Positions 42,979 through 54,490 of a DNA stretch of 64,000 bases are shown piece by piece. This stretch comes from an uncultured Lachnospiraceae bacterium (GTDB lineage: Bacteria > Bacillota > Clostridia > Lachnospirales > Lachnospiraceae), in the NCBI GenBank assembly GCA_902776305.1, contig CACYPS010000003.1:124001-188000 (forward strand), written 5' to 3'. Under the pieces are notes generated by a model. The model was not told where the DNA came from and did not search any database. It saw only the letters and a program-made list of their open reading frames with translations. Position numbers and translations under genes: made by a program. Position 1 is the first letter of the stretch. The number at the start of each line of letters is the position of its first letter.

Positions 42979-43023
42979 TGCGCATTCATCTCACGACTTA
43001 AGTCACGAGAATTCTGCGTCAGA
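42979..43023. repeat. Dispersed 45-mer, copy 1 (overlaps the end of rsmJ)
   Basis: A 45-base sequence starting TGCGCATTCATCTCACGACT and ending ATTCTGCGTCAGA, identical to 55601-55645. On the minus strand its right part encodes the last residues of rsmJ (DAEFS) plus the stop. It contains CTCACGACTTAAGTCACGAG, an imperfect palindrome. Confidence 0.85.
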
Positions 43024-43869
43024 GATTAAATAGCAATCATACCGCACATTTCTGCACTCGATCGCATAACCCGGCCTTCGCCCGGCAAGAGGCTTGCCTT
43101 TGATCGGTCTCTTTACCACGATTCTCTGAGGGCCTGCCTCAAAAGCCGCCTTCAAGAGCTCCTCCTCCGCCGCGCAGGGAGTCTCGAGCTGCTGGAAAAG
43201 CTGAAGCTTCTTCGTGCTTATTCCCGACTTCTGTTTCGCCGGGAACATCGGATCCAGATAAATGAGATCGGGGCGTTTCTCAAGGGATGCAAGGATGTCT
43301 ATTCCGTTTCCCGTGATAAGCTCCATACGGTTCGCAATTTCTCTGATCCGGTTTTCTATCTGTTCCGTTTCAAAGGAATCCGAATATCTCACGGCGGGTT
43401 TTCTCTTTTCAACGCTGACCCCTGTCAAATCATCCGCTCCCCCGCCTCGGCTTATAGACGGTCCGTCCTGTGCTCTCTCAAGTGCATCGGCAAGCAGAGC
43501 CGCTATTACAGGGTTATACTCACACATAATCACATGAAATCCGGCTGCTGCCAGAATAAAAGAATCCTCGCCGAGTCCGGCCGTCGCATCAACGGCTATC
43601 GGATCATCCGGCATTCCTTTCCATCTGGCGGCACGTAAAAGTTTTTCATGTTGAAGATGCCCTCCGAGGACACGGCGGTGCATTTGTCCGAAATCACCCC
43701 TCAGCTCCATCTTTCCCTGAACCAGCGAGAGACCGTTCGGGTCAAAGCGAAGATACCTGTCTTCTCCGGCGACCTCCTCTATATCTGTTACGAGATCCGC
43801 CTGAATGCGTTCCGCTATGGCGGACGCCCTTTCATGCAGGAACTGTTCGCGACCTGCCAGAATTTTCAT
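43003..43869 (-). CDS. rsmJ: 16S rRNA (guanine-N2) methyltransferase RsmJ-like
   Basis: About 288 residues from the ATG at 43869 (AGAGG nine bases upstream; ATG at 43878 and TTG at 43902 are alternatives). Motifs: VDATAGLGEDSFILAAAGFH (SAM loop), ERNP-like CEYNPVIAALLADALERA, ITGNGIDILA, and the catalytic DLIYLDPMFPAKQKSG, then VVKRPIKGKPLAG and VRYDCYLI, all as in RsmJ, which modifies G1516 of 16S rRNA. A polar insert with a GGGADD run (about 145-165) is not typical of E. coli RsmJ. The last codons and stop lie inside a dispersed 45-base repeat, so the C-terminal residues appear to be repeat-derived. Confidence 0.88.
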   Translation of the reverse strand: MKILAGREQFLHERASAIAERIQADLVTDIEEVAGEDRYLRFDPNGLSLVQGKMELRGDFGQMHRRVLGGHLQHEKLLRAARWKGMPDDPIAVDATAGLGEDSFILAAAGFHVIMCEYNPVIAALLADALERAQDGPSISRGGGADDLTGVSVEKRKPAVRYSDSFETEQIENRIREIANRMELITGNGIDILASLEKRPDLIYLDPMFPAKQKSGISTKKLQLFQQLETPCAAEEELLKAAFEAGPQRIVVKRPIKGKPLAGRRPGYAIECRNVRYDCYLISDAEFS

Positions 43870-43928
43870 AAGTTCCATACCTCTCTTCCACTCCGCCAAC
43901 AAATCTTAACTCGGGATTTAAATAAAAT

Positions 43929-44011: not shown

Positions 44012-45382
44012 TCAAACCGTCACCAATCCGAGCACCTGCGCTATCGAAGTCAGAAGGATTATAAGCAGACAGATGATACAGAAATACCGCAGCGTCACGG
44101 TGTAAACCTTCTCCCTCTTGAACGCGGCCCCGTTCTTCGTGACTTCCTTCGTGATCCGGTCGATACCGATCACCTTAAGGCACAGCACGCAGATGGAAAT
44201 CGCGCTGATCGGCATCATGACAGAGTTCGTCAGGAAATCAAAGAAATCCAGGAACTGCATGCCCAGCAGTTTAACGAAGCCGAGCGGTCCGTAGCCCAGG
44301 CAGGAAAGTGTTCCGATACCTATCATAATAGCGCCCATGATGACGGTTCCGACATGCCTGCTGATATGGAATTCGTCTTCAAATGTAGACACCGCACTCT
44401 CAAGCAGCGCTATGGAACTTGTCAGCGCCGCAAAAAGCACGAGAAGGAAAAACATAATTCCGAAAGGCGTTGCAAATCCCATATTCGCAAATACCTTAGG
44501 CAGGGTAATGAACATAAGAGACGGACCTGCCTGCAGAACATCGGGATCCCCGCCGGAAAACGCGAAGACCGCCGGGATGATCATAAGGCCTGCCATGATA
44601 GCGATAGCCGTATCAAAAATCTCGACATTGATCGTTGCCTCCTCTATGGCTACGTCATCTTTCATATAAGAACCGAAAGTGACCAGAATACCCATGGCGA
44701 TGGAAAGCGAGTAGAACATCTGCAACATAGCGGACGCGATCGTCATGAATGAGAAGTTTGCCGGATTCGGAACCAGGAAATAAATCACGCCGTCGATGGC
44801 TCCCGGTCTCGAGATGGAGTACGCAGCTATAATAATAGACAGCACGACCAGGATCGGCATCATGATGCTGGAAACACGCTCAATACCGTTCCTTACACCC
44901 GCATAAATGATGAACAGATTAATGAAGGCAAAAATCAGGAAACAGATTTCTACCTGTGTTCCGTTCGTGATGAATGAAGAAAAATATCCTTCGTCTGTGA
45001 CTGCCAGCGCATTTCCTCTGCAGTATTCGAACAGGTACTTAACAATCCATCCTCCGATCGTCGAGTAATACGGGACGATCAGCATCGGAATGATGGCATT
45101 GATCCATCCGCCGAGCTTGAACGGCAGACTGTCGCCGAAGTGGGCAAATGCTCCTACCGGACTCTTCCATGTCATTCGTCCGAGTGCCGTCTCAGAGATA
45201 ATCATCGTGTAGCCGAATGTCAATGCCAAAATGATGTATACGAGAAGGAATATTCCCCCACCGTACTTTGCCGCGAGGTACGGAAATCTCCAGATGTTTC
45301 CGAGTCCGACGGACGCGCCTGCAGCGGAAAGTACGAAACCGAGCTTTCCGGAAAAAGTGCTTCTCTTTTTCTTGTTGTGCAT
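44012..45382 (-). CDS. Sodium-dependent transporter, neurotransmitter:sodium symporter (NSS) family
   Basis: 456 residues, about 11-12 transmembrane helices. TM1 carries the sodium and substrate site (LSAAGASVGLGNIWRFPYLA, AKYGGGIFLLVYI). TM6 is represented by ASAMLQMFYSLSIAMGILVT and TM8 by LLVLFAALTSSIALLESAVS. Bacterial members such as LeuT and MhsT import amino acids with sodium. The substrate is not predictable. It is monocistronic, with its own terminator and a short leader. Confidence 0.92.
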   Translation of the reverse strand: MHNKKKRSTFSGKLGFVLSAAGASVGLGNIWRFPYLAAKYGGGIFLLVYIILALTFGYTMIISETALGRMTWKSPVGAFAHFGDSLPFKLGGWINAIIPMLIVPYYSTIGGWIVKYLFEYCRGNALAVTDEGYFSSFITNGTQVEICFLIFAFINLFIIYAGVRNGIERVSSIMMPILVVLSIIIAAYSISRPGAIDGVIYFLVPNPANFSFMTIASAMLQMFYSLSIAMGILVTFGSYMKDDVAIEEATINVEIFDTAIAIMAGLMIIPAVFAFSGGDPDVLQAGPSLMFITLPKVFANMGFATPFGIMFFLLVLFAALTSSIALLESAVSTFEDEFHISRHVGTVIMGAIMIGIGTLSCLGYGPLGFVKLLGMQFLDFFDFLTNSVMMPISAISICVLCLKVIGIDRITKEVTKNGAAFKREKVYTVTLRYFCIICLLIILLTSIAQVLGLVTV

Positions 45383-45441: not shown

Positions 45442-45478
45442 AAGAGGGGAAGGATTTTTGTATAACCCTTCCCCTCTT
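45442..45478 (-). terminator. Intrinsic terminator of the dehydrogenase-amylase fusion gene
   Basis: On the minus strand AAGAGGGGAAGG pairs perfectly with CCTTCCCCTCTT (12 bp), followed by TTTATTAAG. It lies about 110 bases after the stop, beyond a repeat element. Confidence 0.85.
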
Positions 45479-45588: not shown

Positions 45589-47907
45589 TCACATTACGAC
45601 CGCGCCCTCCGGCGTCAGATCATGCTCCTCATCCAGCCATACACTGACCGAGCCGCTGTCGACAGAGAAATCTCCATATCCCTGTCTGTTGATGCGTACC
45701 TTTCTGTCAACATGACCGAGAGCATCGTAGAAAGTCTTGCCAGCGTGTTCTTTGCCGACATACATTCTGCGGCGGTGTCTTCCCTTGGTCGAGATAAGGA
45801 CCGCCATACCGTACTTTTCACGGGTCCATCCGATGCAGTACTGATGGTCGAAATAGTCATGCTGCTTTCCGTATGCGTAAAGTCGTCTGATCATCAGCAT
45901 CATCTCGAGATCCGTCCCGACAGGCGGAACGTTATTGTGCGGAATACCGTACAGGTCGCCGTAGAATACACACGGATAACCGTCAGCTCTCAAAAGAATC
46001 AGAGCGTACGCGAGCGGCCTGAACCATGGTTTGATCGGAGACGCCAATGACTGTCCCGGCTGTGTATCATGGTTGTCGACAAATGTCACCGAGTGAATCG
46101 GATTCCTCTGTGTGAGCGTGTTGTCAAATATAGTCCTCAGATCATATCTGTCACGATTGTAGGAAGCGTCGCAGAAATGGAAATGCAACGGAACATCGAA
46201 AAGACTCATCTGATAGTCTGTCTTATCCAGATAATTCGTCAGCTTATTGACGTCTCCGCTCCAGTATTCACCTACCGCGAAAATGTTCCTTCCGCTCTCC
46301 TCCCGCATATATTTGAGCCATTCCCGGTAAAAACCGGCGTCGATATGCTTTACGGCATCGAGACGCACGCCGTCGAGTCCGGTCATTCTCTCATACCAGG
46401 CGCCCCATTTGTTCAGCTCCTCTGCGACCTCCGGCACCTTCTGGTCAATATCCGCACCCATCAGATAGTCGAAGTTTCCGTATTCATTATCGACATCCGA
46501 ACTCCATTCGTGATCTTTCAGCTTGTAAATCGGACCGCCCGACTCGTTCCGGACACCGGAGAAGTAACGATGATCCCATTTGAAATCTGAATACTGATTG
46601 TCACGTCCTTCAAAGTCATAAATAGTCTCCGCTTCTGTCGTGACATATTCGGAATCCAACTCATAGTTCCTGTTGTCCGGGCTCACGCGCACAGCCTCGA
46701 CCTCTTCTGTGCGGTCCGCTCCGAGTTTATGATTCAGAACGATATCCGGATATACATGAAGTCCGGCCTGGTGGCATGCATGGATCGCCGCGTGGTATTC
46801 ATCTTTCGTACCGTATTTTGTCCGGACCGTTCCTTTCTGGTCGAACTCGCCGAGATCATATACATCGTAGACACCGTAGCCTACGTCATTTATGCCATTC
46901 ATGGCCTTATATGCCGGCGGCATCCAGATGGATGTGAACCCCATGGCTTCCAGTGCGGCTGCATTTTCTGCCAGCTGATTCCAGAGCGTTCCGTCGGACG
47001 GCAGATACCACTCGAAATACTGCAGCATCGTTCCGTTCCGCGTAAAGGAATTGTAGTATGCCATCAGGATATCCGTTCCCGCATGGCCGTAACCTTCACG
47101 GTTCATCTGATCGTAGATATCCGTGACGGTATTCAGAACATTCAGGTTCAGATTCCTGTTCTCGGCATCTTCCTTCGCTGTCTGGAAGTCTGTAAGCATA
47201 TGACGTACGGTCAGCGTCTTATCGGAAGACGAATCGATCGTGTCTTCCATCGACAGCAGGGTGCCTGTACTGCTCTCCAGCTCCTGCTCCAGCATGCGGA
47301 TCAACGTCTTCCTGTCGAGGTTGACCTTTCCGCTGTATGCGAGGGATTCGGCCAGACCGCTCACAATACCTGCGGCAGCGATCTGCATCGCCATCTTCAT
47401 CTGCTGGCTGGCCGCGTTCTCTCCGATATAGGTGATCTTATTTCCCAGATTCTCAAGGATAGGGATCACGTCCTTGCAGACACTCCGTTCGCCGCCGATC
47501 AGGATCGTCAGAGAGCCGTTTTCAGCATCTGCCAGACTTCCGGTGATCGGTGCATCGACTGTGCTGATATTTCGTTCTGCAGCTCCTTCCGCTATGCGGA
47601 CAGCGAGTTCCGGACTCTTGGTGGTCATATCGATGATAACACTGTTTTCCGGAGCGGTCTCGCAGATTCCTCCTTCATCGAAATAGAGTTCTTCCACATC
47701 ACGTGGATATGTTACTTTTGAAAATATATATTCAGCGTCTTTAAGGCATTCCTCCACAGTATCAGCCCAGATTGCTCCCTCGGCGATCGGCCCCTCGGCG
47801 CTATATTTCTTTTTATCATAAACAGTTACCTGATAACCGGCATGCAGCAGTCGGATTGCCATTGCGGATCCGAGAGCGTCCATACCTGTAAACGCCAGTT
47901 TTTTCAT
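45589..47907 (-). CDS. Fusion: beta-hydroxyacid dehydrogenase-like domain plus GH13 alpha-amylase
   Basis: 772 residues in one uninterrupted frame. Residues 1-285 form a full 3-hydroxyisobutyrate/6-phosphogluconate-dehydrogenase-like module: Rossmann start, VDAPITGSLADAENG, IGENAASQQMKMAMQ with K171 at the catalytic-lysine position, and a helical C-terminal domain. Its GxGxxG reads GMDALG, so NAD(P) binding may be impaired. Residues 291-772 are a cytoplasmic-type GH13_5 alpha-amylase (NGTMLQYFEWYLPSDG) with the triad intact: D517 in GVRLDAVKHI, E547 in AVGEYWSGD and D614 in FVDNHDTQ. Each half matches the usual length of a free-standing protein. No signal peptide is present, so it acts on intracellular glycan. 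A strong promoter and paired TGTATACA palindromes lie upstream. Confidence 0.92.
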   Translation of the reverse strand: MKKLAFTGMDALGSAMAIRLLHAGYQVTVYDKKKYSAEGPIAEGAIWADTVEECLKDAEYIFSKVTYPRDVEELYFDEGGICETAPENSVIIDMTTKSPELAVRIAEGAAERNISTVDAPITGSLADAENGSLTILIGGERSVCKDVIPILENLGNKITYIGENAASQQMKMAMQIAAAGIVSGLAESLAYSGKVNLDRKTLIRMLEQELESSTGTLLSMEDTIDSSSDKTLTVRHMLTDFQTAKEDAENRNLNLNVLNTVTDIYDQMNREGYGHAGTDILMAYYNSFTRNGTMLQYFEWYLPSDGTLWNQLAENAAALEAMGFTSIWMPPAYKAMNGINDVGYGVYDVYDLGEFDQKGTVRTKYGTKDEYHAAIHACHQAGLHVYPDIVLNHKLGADRTEEVEAVRVSPDNRNYELDSEYVTTEAETIYDFEGRDNQYSDFKWDHRYFSGVRNESGGPIYKLKDHEWSSDVDNEYGNFDYLMGADIDQKVPEVAEELNKWGAWYERMTGLDGVRLDAVKHIDAGFYREWLKYMREESGRNIFAVGEYWSGDVNKLTNYLDKTDYQMSLFDVPLHFHFCDASYNRDRYDLRTIFDNTLTQRNPIHSVTFVDNHDTQPGQSLASPIKPWFRPLAYALILLRADGYPCVFYGDLYGIPHNNVPPVGTDLEMMLMIRRLYAYGKQHDYFDHQYCIGWTREKYGMAVLISTKGRHRRRMYVGKEHAGKTFYDALGHVDRKVRINRQGYGDFSVDSGSVSVWLDEEHDLTPEGAVVM

Positions 47908-48057
47908 CCGTAATAAACCTCCTTATTACAAGTTCTCTTCTGATCTTCTGTCTAGTTCATATGCGCTTCCCTCCAACGCGCCATGCGCAAAACGAAGGCC
48001 ATATCATCTAATATGCTGACGAACCGTGTCCGATCAGAATGAGGAGTGCTGGTCATT

Positions 48058-48140: not shown

Positions 48141-48169
48141 ATTTTAGTCCTACCGGGACGACTTGTCAA
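48141..48169 (-). promoter_or_regulatory. Distal consensus promoter of the fusion gene
   Basis: Minus strand: perfect TTGACA (48164-48169), 17-base spacer, TAAAAT (48141-48146), giving a leader of about 225 bases. Confidence 0.7.
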
Positions 48170-48267: not shown

Positions 48268-49542
48268 TCATGGCATCAGTCCTCCCCCTGTCGCCCAGAC
48301 AATGTGTGTTGCATCAGACATGAGATCCGAGAGTCCGTTTTCTTCAAGATACTTTACAAATAAACTGTCGGTGCGTTCAATCTCCGAAAGTCCCCCGAAA
48401 CCGGCACACGCCGACGGCTCAAGACGTATTCCCTCCGTCTCGCTGATCTTGCTTTGATACTCAAGCATTCTCTCGTCAGATACCGTGAAGACGCCTGACA
48501 CGAGGCTTTCCATCATATTGCACACAAAACCCGAAGGTCTTCCGACCGCAAGGCCGTCGGCCACTGTATGCCCTGTAAGCCCTATATCCTGAACACTTAT
48601 TTTTTCATGCTGACCGCTTGCCATCCCGACCAGCATGCACGGTGCTTCGACAGGTTCTGCAAAAAAGCAGTGGACATTCGATCCGAACAGTTGCTTAAAT
48701 CCATAAGTGATACCTCCCGGAGCTCCGCCAACTCCGCAAGGCAAATAGAGGAACAGCGGATGTCTTGCATCCACGGGAATACTCCTCTTTACCAACTGTA
48801 CAGAGACGCGCATTGCAGCCGTAGCGTATCCGAAGAAAAGATCTTCCGAGTTCTCATCATCTATGAAAAAGCTGTTCGGATCAGCTTCCGACTCCTTCCG
48901 TCCGTTGGCAACAGCCTGGCTGTAATCCCCGGCATACTCCCTGACAATGACGCCTTCGCTCCTGAGCAGATCCTTCTTCCATTGTTTTGCATCACTTGAC
49001 ATATGAACTATAGCACGAAATCCGAGCCGCGCAGCAGTTCTTCCGATACTGATTCCGAGATTCCCGGTCGAACCTACCTGAATCGTATACTGACTATAGA
49101 ATTCACGGAATTCATCCGAATCTATTTTTGAGTAGTTCTCGGTAGGCCAGAGCATTCCCGCTCTCTGTGCCAGCGTCTCCGCAATCTTGAGGACTTCATG
49201 AATACCGCCTCTCGCTTTTACGGAACCTGCGATGGGCAGATGTGCATCGTCTTTCAAGAAGACCTGGCCGCCAATATTCGCTCCCTTTCCGTTCAGCCAT
49301 TCCCGCATCCCGGGAATGGGAATGAGATCGGATTCAATAATCCCTTTTCTTGCCTCCGTCTCCGGGAATGCACTTGCAAAATAAGGCATAAAACGCATGA
49401 AACGACTCTGTGCCGCTTTCATATGCACGAACTTGTATCCGTTCCGCTCAAATCGCGGAGCCACATGCTCACGGCCGGGATTCAGCCAGAGGGTCTCTTT
49501 TCTCTCCTCGAGGTCTTTAATAATACCGTCAGCGATACTCAT
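48268..49542 (-). CDS. dsdA: D-serine ammonia-lyase (D-serine dehydratase)
   Basis: 424 residues, PLP-dependent fold type II. The PLP lysine lies in HLPIAGSVKARGGIHEVL, the phosphate-binding glycine-rich loop in YLPCGVGGAPGGITYGF, and STGNLGISIG (VGSTGNLGISIGRTAARL) supplies the substrate loop. IESDLIPIPGMREWLNGKG matches the DsdA N-terminus. It converts D-serine to pyruvate and ammonia, for detoxification or catabolism. The start has GGGAGGAGAG upstream. A D-serine regulator (DsdC) is not present nearby. Confidence 0.92.
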   Translation of the reverse strand: MSIADGIIKDLEERKETLWLNPGREHVAPRFERNGYKFVHMKAAQSRFMRFMPYFASAFPETEARKGIIESDLIPIPGMREWLNGKGANIGGQVFLKDDAHLPIAGSVKARGGIHEVLKIAETLAQRAGMLWPTENYSKIDSDEFREFYSQYTIQVGSTGNLGISIGRTAARLGFRAIVHMSSDAKQWKKDLLRSEGVIVREYAGDYSQAVANGRKESEADPNSFFIDDENSEDLFFGYATAAMRVSVQLVKRSIPVDARHPLFLYLPCGVGGAPGGITYGFKQLFGSNVHCFFAEPVEAPCMLVGMASGQHEKISVQDIGLTGHTVADGLAVGRPSGFVCNMMESLVSGVFTVSDERMLEYQSKISETEGIRLEPSACAGFGGLSEIERTDSLFVKYLEENGLSDLMSDATHIVWATGGGLMP

Positions 49543-49957: not shown

Positions 49958-52900
49958 ATGAGACACAAGTCACTCATCAATAAGCTGACCGCCGCCTTCA
50001 TGACAGTCTGCCTGACAATCGGAAGCGCAGGAACGCTGCCTGTCACGGTTTATGGCGAGGGAGAAGGAACCGACACTACTGATATCATATCAACCGATTC
50101 ACCGGATTTTGACATCGACGAAAAGGTGGCTGACCTTCTCGCACAAGGTGACTACGAAGAAGGGCGCGCCATTGTCCTCTATGACACGGAGAGTCCTGTC
50201 TCCGATGAGGAGCTTGTCGGTGCCGGAGATCTCATCGCCGGTGCCGAGCAGATCGCGGAAGTCAGTGCGGAAAGCTATGTGAACGCGACAGGAGAAACTC
50301 TTCCGATTCCCGACGGAGAGCTTGTCGGCGCATCATCCGATTCCGCAGACGATGACCGTATTGCAATCCTTGTGGTTGAAGATCAGAGCCGTTCAACGGA
50401 AGAACTTCTGCGTGAACTCTTATCTGACCCGCGAGTTCTGAGTGCGGAACCTGACTATATATTCAGTGTCAATTCCGTCGATCAAGATGGTCCCTCTGAC
50501 GAGCTTCTCGAGAATACCGCTGTTATACCTGATACAGAAAGCAGCACAGGCTCCGAGGCGGAACCGTTCGTTCAAAATCCATCTGTGAGCATCCCGGAAG
50601 ATGAATACGCACTTCAGGACAGTGACACAGATTATGATATGGATGATGAAACTGTCACATCAGACACTGCAGATCTGTCTGTTTCCGGCAGAGATGTTGC
50701 AAATATCGATGGATCGGGCAGTGCTGATCAAAGTGCCGATGCCCTCGTCTCAGACGATGCAGAAGAAGAAGTCATTGTCGGCGCATCCGGAGACCTGACG
50801 CCATATCAGTGGGGAATGTCCGACGGAAAAAATCGTTATGCGGGAGCAATGCTTGAGGACACAGAAGTCTACAGTGTGAATTCTCCTAACTGGAATACCG
50901 TCGGTGCCACCAACGCCGAGGGCGTCATCGCCGTCATAGACACCGGTATCGACCATACTCATCCTGACTTAAAAGACAATATGTATGTCATCCCGGATTC
51001 CGTGCAGGAGAAGCTCGATTGCGGAGAATATGGCGTCAGCACCCTGATAGGCGTTCGTGACAAGACAGACACAATGGATGTGGACGGACACGGGACACAC
51101 TGTGCCGGCATAATAGCCGCTTCCTGGAATAATAAAGGTGTAAGCGGTGTCACCTCAGGCGCCAAGCTCATAGCTGTCCGGGCACTCGATGATAAAGGTT
51201 CCACAACATACTCCGCTATACTTTTTGCACAGGCATTTGTTCAAAATGCAAAAGAAAACGGAATTGATATAAGGGCTACGAGCAATTCTTACAGTGTCGA
51301 TGCACCCAACTATGCTTTGCGCGTCATGATCGAAGAACTCGGAAAACTCGGTATTATCTGCGTATTTGCAAGCGGAAATGAGTCATCTTATATAAATCTG
51401 CTTGAACAAAGCACAAATCATATATGGGATCTCCCGAACGTGGTTATTGTCGATGCATCTGCCGAAAACGGAGATAAGGCATCATTTTCGAACTTCAGCC
51501 AGAATCAGACGCATATATTTGCTCCCGGCGTAAATATCCTCTCCACAGTACCGACAGCAGGTTCAGACGAAGCGCCGATAGATTATTTTGCTGAGCTGGA
51601 TGATGCCCCGCTATATACGGATCCCTCCTGGAAGAATCTTGGCTCAGACATGATAGCCGGTGTATCGTTAGACTGGCTGGAATATCCCTACTTTGACTAC
51701 TTTCAGGTCACGCAGATTACAGATATATCTTCCTGCGGTCAGACGCCTGCGCTCCGATTCAAGCTGCTGAAAGATGTACCTGCCGGCAAGGAAATGACTT
51801 ACTGTTTTCTTATCCCCGTGGGAAAAGATGCACCTGTTGCCTATGTCTCTGCGGATATTCTCACGCCTGACAGCAACACAACAACCACGCTTCGAGTCCG
51901 CACACGAACTGACGGCGATACAATGAATGACGTATCAAGCAGCGTAAGAGAAGACCATTATGATTGGGTGCACCGGTCGGTAATAGACCTGGATAAAAAC
52001 GGCAGAACTATAGATATGGTCGATGATGTCTATCTTCCTGTTTATATCGATCTGAGCAAAAACGATAATTCCTCACTGAAGGCCGGAGAATATGTTTACA
52101 TTGATAATATTTGTGTCGGTTCCTCGTCCTATAGGAACGATCAGACAGCCTTCGGAATCATGAGCGGAACATCCATGGCGACGCCGTTTGCAGCCGGTAT
52201 GGCTATGGTTCTCTATAAAGGCAAAGAGGTAAACCGCCAAAATGCCAGCCTTCTCGCAGCAGGTCTGCAGGGACTGGTGCGTACAAAAGATTCTCTGGCA
52301 GGTTACTGCACTTCCGGCGGCGTTCTCGACTACTCGGTAGACTCTAATGCGATGCTGCCTGTCATAAATTCGGCGACTCTGAACAGCACCGACCGCACTA
52401 TCACATTGGCCGGATATTTCTTCGGGAACAGAGGAACACTATCCTCCGTAAATCTGGCAGGAACAGATCTTGAAATCGTCAGCTGGAGCAACAACGAGGT
52501 AGTGGTAAAATGCCCCGACCGGATGGCTTCCGGTCTTCAGAAAATAGTATTGACCGATGCGGGCGGTCTGACTACTCGCAGCGCATTCAGCCTCACAGTT
52601 CCGGAAGATTCTGAAATCGAAGACACGGCTACAGAGCTTTATGAAACAACACTGCCGGATATTCCTGCCGATGTGATCGGTGTGGATGAATCAATTTGCA
52701 ATGTATGCGGTCTCAATGATACGATATACATCACAGCAGGCAAAACATATGGAAGCGGACTCTATGCAGAAAAATTAGTCAGTTATTCGATCAAGGATAA
52801 GAAATGGAAAGTCGTTGCTACTATTCCCGAAGAAGGTCTCACGGACTGTTCTATGGCTGCATATCAGGGAACTATCTTCCTGAACGGTACAGATGTTGAC

Positions 52901-54490
52901 GGTATAGCCTACCTGTATTACTACTCACCTTCGAAGAAAGACTGGTACTTGCTCGAAAAATCCGGCGTTGCCGATGCAACGATTGTCAGTTTTAAGAATA
53001 GTCTCCTTTCCATAGGCGGTTCCTCCTTAAAAACTGCCAGCGAAATACGTCTGATAGATGTATCCACAGGAAAAGCTAACGTACTTGCAGATCTCGGATA
53101 CAAGATCGCACGTGCCCAAACCGCAGTTTGCGGTGATACGCTTTGCCTCTACGAAGGTTATGTATATAATGAAGAAACCAATAAGTGGAAACAAGATCAG
53201 TATGGGATGGCTTGCTACACAATAAGCGACAAGGGTATCAGCAGAGATGCGGGGAAAGAAATAGAAATCAATTCCCTGCTTATGAAGGGTTCTGAAGCTC
53301 TCCTGAGTACAATATGCGCTTCTGACGAGGACATATATCTTGTCGGTCTGCAGCTGAGTCAGGATGCATCAGGTTCTGTAATCGATCCTTCCGGCTATCA
53401 GGTTGCAGACGGAGATACATGGGTGTATTCGGATCAGATGAAAAATCTGGGCAAACGCCTGTCCCACACAATCGTGACACATCCGAAGGCTGTCGTTTAC
53501 AAAGGCATACTCTACGGTTTCGGTCTTAACACGCAGGACGGTAATCCCACGACATATGTAGCTCGCGCCACCGTAGTTGATGAAACCCCCGATACCCCGA
53601 TTCAGGATACAATTAAGGTAAAAATCCCGAAGGCAAAAAAGGGACTTATATACAACGGAAAGTCCCAGACAGGCGTTCCGGCAAGTGCTGAAGGTTACTA
53701 TAATATCAAGAATAACAGGAAGACTGACCCCGGAACATACAAAGCCCGGGCAGAACTCATTGATCAGGATTATCTTGTCTGGGAGGACGGAACATCAGCC
53801 GCGAAGACCATAACATGGTCAATCGCCCCAATCTCAGTCACAGGCGTGAAACTTGATAAAACAAATCTCACCGTTTACGCAGGCACCACCGGGCAGCTCA
53901 AAGCAACGGTCATCCCTTCCGAAGCAAACAATAAGGCCGTAACATGGAAGAGCGCAGATACGACAATAGCGAAGGTCGATCAGAGTGGCAAGGTTACAGG
54001 CGTAAAGGCAGGCACAGTCAAGGTCACGGTAACAACGAAAGACGGTTCGAAGAAAGCCACATGCACGGTTAAGGTCATCGCAGGTATACCTGTCTACCGA
54101 CTTTATAACGTTAAAGGAAACGGAGATCATCTGTTCACGACAAGTGCCTATGAAAAGAACACTCTGACACTCCGTGGCTGGAAATATGAGGGCATTGCAT
54201 GGTATGCGCCGAAGACTTCATCCACCGCAGTCTATCGATTCTATAATTCAAACAACGGAACTCATATGTACACCAAGACTGCTGCAGAACGTACAGCCAT
54301 GACAGGAGCCGGCTGGAAGCAGGAAGGAATTGCTTTCTATTCCTGCACGGACAGCAGCAAGGTCCCGGTTTACAGATTATACAATCCAAACAACGCTCAG
54401 CACTTCTTTACGAAAGCTGTTTCGGAGAAAAACACTCTTGTGAAAGCCGGCTGGAAGTATGAGGGAATTGGATTCTATGCATTGCCTTGA
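49958..54490 (+). CDS. Large secreted S8 subtilisin-like protease with C-terminal Kelch-like, Big2 and DUF5648-like domains
   Basis: 1510 residues. A signal peptide (about 1-31) is followed by a prodomain-like acidic region (to about 260) that repeats a (D/E)-E/G-LVGA motif. The S8 domain has the full triad: D328 (AVIDTGIDHTHPDL), H378 (DGHGTHCAG) and S739 (MSGTSMATP), with the oxyanion Asn N474 (FASGNES). About 190 residues (roughly 532-728) are inserted between APGVNILST and the catalytic Ser block; they look like a beta-sandwich. Then come an IPT/TIG-like domain (about 800-890), a Kelch-like beta-propeller region (about 895-1210), an MBG-like segment, a Big2 domain (about 1290-1376) and three DUF5648-like repeats (GWKYEGIAWY type) to the end. 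No LPxTG or transmembrane anchor is present, so it is probably secreted or wall-bound through the repeats. Confidence 0.93.
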   Translation: MRHKSLINKLTAAFMTVCLTIGSAGTLPVTVYGEGEGTDTTDIISTDSPDFDIDEKVADLLAQGDYEEGRAIVLYDTESPVSDEELVGAGDLIAGAEQIAEVSAESYVNATGETLPIPDGELVGASSDSADDDRIAILVVEDQSRSTEELLRELLSDPRVLSAEPDYIFSVNSVDQDGPSDELLENTAVIPDTESSTGSEAEPFVQNPSVSIPEDEYALQDSDTDYDMDDETVTSDTADLSVSGRDVANIDGSGSADQSADALVSDDAEEEVIVGASGDLTPYQWGMSDGKNRYAGAMLEDTEVYSVNSPNWNTVGATNAEGVIAVIDTGIDHTHPDLKDNMYVIPDSVQEKLDCGEYGVSTLIGVRDKTDTMDVDGHGTHCAGIIAASWNNKGVSGVTSGAKLIAVRALDDKGSTTYSAILFAQAFVQNAKENGIDIRATSNSYSVDAPNYALRVMIEELGKLGIICVFASGNESSYINLLEQSTNHIWDLPNVVIVDASAENGDKASFSNFSQNQTHIFAPGVNILSTVPTAGSDEAPIDYFAELDDAPLYTDPSWKNLGSDMIAGVSLDWLEYPYFDYFQVTQITDISSCGQTPALRFKLLKDVPAGKEMTYCFLIPVGKDAPVAYVSADILTPDSNTTTTLRVRTRTDGDTMNDVSSSVREDHYDWVHRSVIDLDKNGRTIDMVDDVYLPVYIDLSKNDNSSLKAGEYVYIDNICVGSSSYRNDQTAFGIMSGTSMATPFAAGMAMVLYKGKEVNRQNASLLAAGLQGLVRTKDSLAGYCTSGGVLDYSVDSNAMLPVINSATLNSTDRTITLAGYFFGNRGTLSSVNLAGTDLEIVSWSNNEVVVKCPDRMASGLQKIVLTDAGGLTTRSAFSLTVPEDSEIEDTATELYETTLPDIPADVIGVDESICNVCGLNDTIYITAGKTYGSGLYAEKLVSYSIKDKKWKVVATIPEEGLTDCSMAAYQGTIFLNGTDVDGIAYLYYYSPSKKDWYLLEKSGVADATIVSFKNSLLSIGGSSLKTASEIRLIDVSTGKANVLADLGYKIARAQTAVCGDTLCLYEGYVYNEETNKWKQDQYGMACYTISDKGISRDAGKEIEINSLLMKGSEALLSTICASDEDIYLVGLQLSQDASGSVIDPSGYQVADGDTWVYSDQMKNLGKRLSHTIVTHPKAVVYKGILYGFGLNTQDGNPTTYVARATVVDETPDTPIQDTIKVKIPKAKKGLIYNGKSQTGVPASAEGYYNIKNNRKTDPGTYKARAELIDQDYLVWEDGTSAAKTITWSIAPISVTGVKLDKTNLTVYAGTTGQLKATVIPSEANNKAVTWKSADTTIAKVDQSGKVTGVKAGTVKVTVTTKDGSKKATCTVKVIAGIPVYRLYNVKGNGDHLFTTSAYEKNTLTLRGWKYEGIAWYAPKTSSTAVYRFYNSNNGTHMYTKTAAERTAMTGAGWKQEGIAFYSCTDSSKVPVYRLYNPNNAQHFFTKAVSEKNTLVKAGWKYEGIGFYALP

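Follow-up and report, generated by a model that had tools for sequence, protein, structure and literature searches.

A beta-hydroxyacid dehydrogenase-like module fused to a cytoplasmic-type GH13 alpha-amylase in one lineage of the Lachnospiraceae

A single gene in an uncultured Lachnospiraceae bacterium encodes a 772 aa protein in which a beta-hydroxyacid dehydrogenase (beta-HAD)-like module, here called the N-module, precedes a GH13 alpha-amylase. The gene lies at 45589..47907 on the minus strand of the window, the 64,000 nt stretch of contig CACYPS010000003.1 that was analysed, and is a single open frame with an ATG start. A first-pass annotation, made without database searches, had given the correct coordinates and length and left the strand unstated. 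Its central claim, that the two modules are fused on one chain, is borne out by the Pfam and NCBIfam domains and by recurrence of the fusion in the genus. The domain architecture is new, its parts already known, and the N-module may now serve the amylase in a role other than catalysis.

The N-module has the two-domain beta-HAD fold, a Rossmann half followed by a helical half, and both corresponding Pfam models score over their cut-offs. The Rossmann half (NAD_binding_2, PF03446; E 2.2e-38) spans residues 3–162 (47422..47901; minus strand, as for all features of this gene below), and the C-terminal helical half (NAD_binding_11, PF14833; E 1.4e-9) spans residues 166–280 (47068..47412). The closest known system is that of the beta-HADs of the 3-hydroxyisobutyrate dehydrogenase/tartronate semialdehyde reductase family (3w6u, 3q3c and 5je8), and the best-scoring solved chains are L-serine and 3-hydroxyisobutyrate dehydrogenase-like proteins. 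The N-module falls below the cut-off of every NCBIfam dehydrogenase model listed, the best score being 146.5 against 340.75 bits. In the predicted model, a structural alignment to beta-HAD-type proteins covers residues 1–291, with low confidence in the helical half; pLDDT is below 50 for residues 164–290 of the full-length monomer prediction, and the helices predicted at 165–192, 199–222, 231–250, 256–270 and 274–289 are of low confidence. The N-module modelled alone, from six rows, came out poorly (mean pLDDT 50.8).

The GH13 module occupies residues 290–760 (45628..47040) and includes the Pfam domains Alpha-amylase (residues 319–657, E 5.3e-24) and Alpha-amy_C_pro (residues 713–757, E 2.3e-6). 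At the junction (residues 281–294; 47026..47067), between the predicted helix 274–289 and a predicted strand at 294–296, there is no long linker, and the final helix of the N-module is predicted to pass almost straight into the first barrel strand, within or next to the part of the model (164–290) where pLDDT is below 50. Among five representative fusions, 13 of the 15 residues from 286 to 300 are invariant.

When the whole protein was used to query 42 genomes of the genus, the fusion was found in one open frame in eight, including its own, and the seven other genomes carry the entire protein at 74–99% identity without a stop. The same domain order recurs within the genus. A stand-alone amylase only, 51–53% identical to the fusion, was found in 14 genomes, and 20 returned no match to the whole protein at E up to 1e-30. 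Fusion and stand-alone amylase were found together in none of the 42, although several genomes are incomplete and these absences are soft, and at E up to 1e-30 no genome gave a second match of the GH13_5 type. Residues 285–291, which the first-pass annotation had placed at 47035–47055 and singled out for checking, do lie there and the frame is open across them. No stop or frameshift was found at the junction in the eight assemblies, and separate assemblies agree on it. Nor did the searches list a close relative encoding two proteins: no stand-alone protein listed shared more than 57% identity with the full-length sequence or with its amylase portion.

As eight of the 42 genus genomes carry it, the fusion is not an assembly artefact. 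While the genus genomes are mostly fragmented draft assemblies, the same junction is found in eight genomes whose synonymous divergence ranges up to saturation and the single gene is framed by promoter-like, Shine-Dalgarno-like and terminator-like sites, and we consider the chance that two genes were joined by an assembly or sequencing error to be negligible.

Five of the 38 loci found in a named collection were fusions, all in Lachnospiraceae assemblies, of which three bear the ileum of goat or sheep in their names; these five repeat genomes already in the genus set and were counted once. Outside the genus, no listed match spanned both modules in overlapping samples drawn from the family (397 genomes), the order (392) and the phylum (398), and none of the N-module matches listed from the same samples lay in an open frame longer than 436 aa; these searches list matches within set E-value limits. 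A viral origin or spread of the fusion was considered and set aside, no relative being confirmed in two scans of viral contigs. Literature searches, confined to open-access sources and one of them weak, did not turn up the combination of a beta-HAD with a GH13 amylase.

The fused proteins form one group with 100/100 support in maximum likelihood trees of both the amylase (43 rows: 11 of 33 stand-alone loci, nine family loci, L015 and 22 genus loci) and the N-module (56 rows). A single fused group in each tree fits one fusion event, and from these trees the fusion appears to have arisen once and then been preserved in one Lachnospiraceae lineage. The branch leading to the fused proteins measures 2.22 changes per column for the N-module and 0.68 for the amylase. 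Relatives of the N-module that stand alone, with identities of up to 38%, were found in other genera of the family, order and phylum, and none above 30% identity was listed among 37 genus genomes. In the N-module tree, from which the frame-broken fragment L097 was left out and in which the distant paralogue L002 was kept, L086 joins the fusions, but this is flagged as a possible false join of long branches and makes L086 at most a tentative nearest stand-alone relative.

Judged from substitution rates, both modules are under purifying selection since the fusion. For the pair L001/L008, the N-module has dS 0.27, dN 0.009 and dN/dS 0.034, and the amylase dS 0.21 and dN 0.002. For L010/L014, dN/dS is 0.237 in the N-module (dS 0.86) and 0.108 in the amylase. 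Many other pairs of fusions are saturated at synonymous sites, and their dN stays low.

The 14 stand-alone amylase genes of the genus (L016–L026 and L065–L067) fall into two clades of seven, with rows from other genera between them and the fused clade apart from both. For these stand-alone amylases the tree suggests repeated gain or replacement. Several family relatives (G1089, G899, G924 and G831) have the same amylase in open frames of 649–903 aa, perhaps reflecting further additions of domains.

The amylase module scores 661.8 bits against NF006969 (PRK09441, cytoplasmic alpha-amylase; cut-off 382), is also over the cut-off of NF006968 (498 versus 389), and is under those of three sister models; we take it to belong to GH13 subfamily 5. 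Its nearest solved relatives are Bacillus/Geobacillus-type amylases, and it is 48–54% identical to its best structural matches. With the PRK09441/NF006969 amylases (solved relatives 4uzu, 1hvx and 2die) it shares the whole module, the catalytic triad and the C-terminal domain. The residues Asp517 (46357..46359), Glu547 (46267..46269) and Asp614 (46066..46068), to which we assign the catalytic roles from knowledge of the GH13 family, are invariant in 26/26 aligned proteins, a set that includes 20 of the named collection's 33 stand-alone amylase loci, and the triad is therefore intact, as first proposed. Most stand-alone PRK09441-type relatives have, by eye, a plausible start site at an NGTM/NxTM segment or just ahead of it, whereas the fusion carries approximately 287 extra residues there. 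It is unlikely that the amylase is also made on its own from a conserved start within the gene; six of the eight fusions have ATG at residues 282 and 294, but the other two have no start codon in residues 271–300.

No obvious signal peptide was seen by eye in the fusion or in many of its stand-alone relatives; the stand-alone amylases L015 and L039 look secreted by the same inspection. Glycogen synthase (glgA) was over cut-off in 7/8 fused genomes, and the glycogen-phosphorylase family was found in 7/8, in G018 and G032 as fragments only. The fused genome with neither is G003, which is 64% complete. As glycogen synthase and the phosphorylase family are present in the fused genomes, we infer that the substrate of the amylase is likely an intracellular alpha-glucan, either glycogen or imported maltodextrin.

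Two sites within the amylase module differ between fused and stand-alone proteins. Residue 453 (window ~46549) is Arg in the six aligned fusions and Asp in all 20 aligned stand-alones. Near residue 697 (window ~45817), the loop TREGDxxHxxSGLAV is replaced by TREKYGxAV in the six fusions; most relatives have the longer loop, and one stand-alone amylase, L035, is also short there. Both are possible sites of contact with the N-module.

The fusion gene looks like its own transcription unit, being surrounded by a Shine-Dalgarno-like AAGGAGG ahead of the ATG (47918..47924, minus strand; read from the sequence), a sigma-70-like promoter TTGACA-17-TAAAAT (48141..48169, minus strand; 11/12 positions) and, downstream, an intrinsic-terminator-like hairpin of 15 pairs with a T-rich tail (45442..45478, minus strand). 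The promoter and terminator are consensus matches only, and the scanned stretch contains nine promoter-like sites versus 3.6 in shuffles and four terminator-like sites versus 2.2.

A D-serine ammonia-lyase gene (over cut-off; window 48268–49542, minus strand) and an SNF-family sodium symporter gene (44012–45382, minus strand) flank the fusion here, and they also do so in G022. They were rejected as operon partners, since neither was seen by the fusion in G025, G011 or G032 (four of the seven other loci were inspected, by eye). A SAM_MT-type methyltransferase gene lies nearby (43003–43902, minus strand) and has a 58% identical counterpart close to the G025 fusion (L119:10541–11305); this recurring neighbour looks like shared chromosomal background. 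At 49958–54490 (plus strand) the window encodes a 1510 aa protein which, by eye, begins with a signal-like segment, contains motifs resembling those of subtilisins and carries VYRLYNxNxxxHxFT...GWKYEGI repeats towards its C-terminus. For the ancestral function of the N-module, no common neighbour was noticed in six stand-alone regions, of which the first residues were inspected by eye.

Four motifs of the 3-hydroxyacid dehydrogenases, described for cofactor, substrate and catalysis in PMC3642240, were compared with the N-module, and each is altered at at least one position in all eight fusions. The comparison set consists of 47 stand-alone N-module relatives, drawn from 48 stand-alone loci, a part of those matched, with L097 and L002 left out. 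Of 46 positions invariant in 47/47 stand-alones, 12 are altered in 8/8 fusions (M12, G66, G165, G167, N174, G209, A211, P230, G231, F232, K235 and K239), 11 in some and 23 in none, where the eight fusions are only five distinct lineages of one clade and such counts are not independent. The 23 kept in all eight include G8, G123, G162, Q168, K171, Q175, H236 and D240.

The nucleotide-binding loop of motif 1 reads GMDALG (residues 8–13; 47869..47886), with Asp for the second glycine. This position, one of the 11 altered in some fusions, is Asp in three fusions, Asn in one and Gly in four, and the glycine was apparently lost twice, as the sister of the Asn-bearing fusion keeps it. The first-pass annotation's description of the loop as degenerate therefore holds for the lineage of this protein but not as a general trait, since 4/8 fusions, two of the five distinct lineages, read GxGDLG. 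Elsewhere, motif 1 (GXXGXGXMGXXXAXNXXXXG) is broken in 8/8, where Leu replaces Met12 and Arg replaces Asn19. The motif 2 region, DAPITGSLADAENG (residues 118–131; 47515..47556), departs from DAPVSGGXXXAXXG at Ser122, which is Thr in three fusions, Ile in four and Met in one; Thr also occurs in 15/47 stand-alones and Ile and Met in none, so that motif 2 is the weakest case, and G123 is kept in 8/8. In the motif 3 region (residues 162–175; 47383..47424), the inner glycines 165 and 167 of GXXGXGXXXKXXXN/Q are lost and Asn174 is replaced in 8/8, while Gln175 and Lys171 are kept throughout, confirming the earlier observation that the lysine is retained. The motif 4 region, RHMLTD (residues 235–240; 47188..47205), corresponds to KHxxKD in the stand-alone relatives, which themselves match KDLGXAXD just partly; Lys239 is Thr in six fusions and Ala in two, and Asp240 is kept in 8/8. 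By these residues the pocket of the N-module is heavily rebuilt, beyond the glycine loop noted in the first-pass annotation, with its catalytic lysine retained.

Conservation is unevenly distributed along the N-module. In the five representative fusions, 26% of residues 1–90 are invariant, compared with 70% of residues 230–290 and 69% of the amylase. The ratio of divergence in residues 230–285 to that in residues 1–165 averages 0.45 in the five fusion representatives (0.18–0.65, 10 pairs) and 1.14 in stand-alone pairs of 50–90% identity (0.38–2.04, 960 pairs), with L097 and L002 again omitted from the stand-alones. Over the whole helical half (166–285) the corresponding ratios are 0.67 (0.29–0.88) and 1.08 (0.42–1.83), and 10.6% of stand-alone pairs lie within the upper bound of the fused range. 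In L010/L014 the two halves of the N-module are nearly equal in dN/dS (0.228 and 0.219). Given the overlapping ranges and this near-equal pair, the figures support, without proving, a bias of conservation towards the C-terminal helical part adjoining the amylase.

The explanation we favour, and to which we give about an even chance, is that the N-module is a pseudoenzyme serving as a scaffold, by which the amylase is locked into an oligomer; both its inactivity and the oligomerisation are what we infer. A single fusion would have put a beta-HAD domain before a cytoplasmic, subfamily-5-like GH13 alpha-amylase, the intact amylase module most likely cuts intracellular alpha-glucan, and the N-module, with many cofactor- and substrate-site residues lost, most likely became a pseudoenzyme. 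Beta-HADs normally associate through their C-terminal helical domain. As the helical half of the N-module is its best conserved part and runs almost directly into the barrel, its probable effect is to stabilise the amylase and lock it into a dimer or larger assembly. Maltogenic amylase is a GH13 enzyme with an N-terminal domain that we take to be unrelated to dehydrogenases. That domain, which is shorter than the N-module (an extra 128 residues), dimerises the enzyme and sets or changes its specificity, according to PMC3777949. An inert beta-HAD domain within a larger chain, acting as a tetrameric scaffold, is described for NPAC/GLYR1 in PMC13144531. Unlike the fusion, NPAC/GLYR1 is a eukaryotic chromatin protein, and its catalytic lysine is replaced, whereas the fusion keeps the lysine and the surrounding motifs are altered instead. 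Retention of the lysine counts against the scaffold reading, as a pure scaffold need not keep it, and so do the other positions among the 23 of 46 that are kept in 8/8, including Q168, Q175, H236 and D240, and the GxGxxG loop in 4/8 fusions.

The same retained residues (K171, Q168, Q175 and G8) and the loops reading GxGDLG would suit an allosteric sensor, in which the remodelled pocket of the N-module would still accommodate a small ligand, such as a dinucleotide, and so adjust the amylase to the redox or carbon state of the cell. This is possible, though clearly less favoured. Purifying selection on the N-module and a junction without a long linker, which suits coupling, are consistent with it, as is NPAC/GLYR1, described in PMC13144531 as inert yet binding NADH or NADPH. 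However, the lineage studied here has Asp for a loop glycine that was apparently lost twice, and within the module conservation is lowest in the Rossmann half. We are rather doubtful of the specific form in which the N-module is a built-in regulator that detects a metabolite or redox cofactor and acts as a switch on the amylase via the helix-to-barrel junction. The first-pass annotation had proposed either a dimerisation or ligand-sensing domain or an enzyme oxidising a product of glycan breakdown. With four motifs altered in 8/8 fusions and the lean of conservation towards the C-terminal part, the former is favoured, and the latter is disfavoured, though K171 is kept. A working oxidoreductase of changed specificity, making the fusion a bifunctional enzyme, is unlikely: while it fits the retained lysine, the modelled structural alignment over residues 1–291 and the selection on the N-module, no shared pathway neighbour was seen at four other fused loci, and the products of amylases are maltodextrins, not hydroxyacids. 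Several of the 12 altered positions also fall in motifs that PMC3642240 links to cofactor, substrate and catalysis. The very long N-module stem and the altered motifs would also suit a passive passenger, slowly decaying and doing no more than replace the amylase N-terminus, but the low N-module dN/dS, the lack of any stop or indel in residues 1–290 of the eight fusions, and residues 230–290 being as invariant as the amylase make it very unlikely.

Two very common families are here joined in an unusual combination, and the fusion provides a clear example, at the level of sequence, of an enzyme domain that has apparently been turned into a non-enzymatic part and then conserved. The fused and stand-alone amylases of this one genus are natural pairs that allow the effect of the added domain to be measured.
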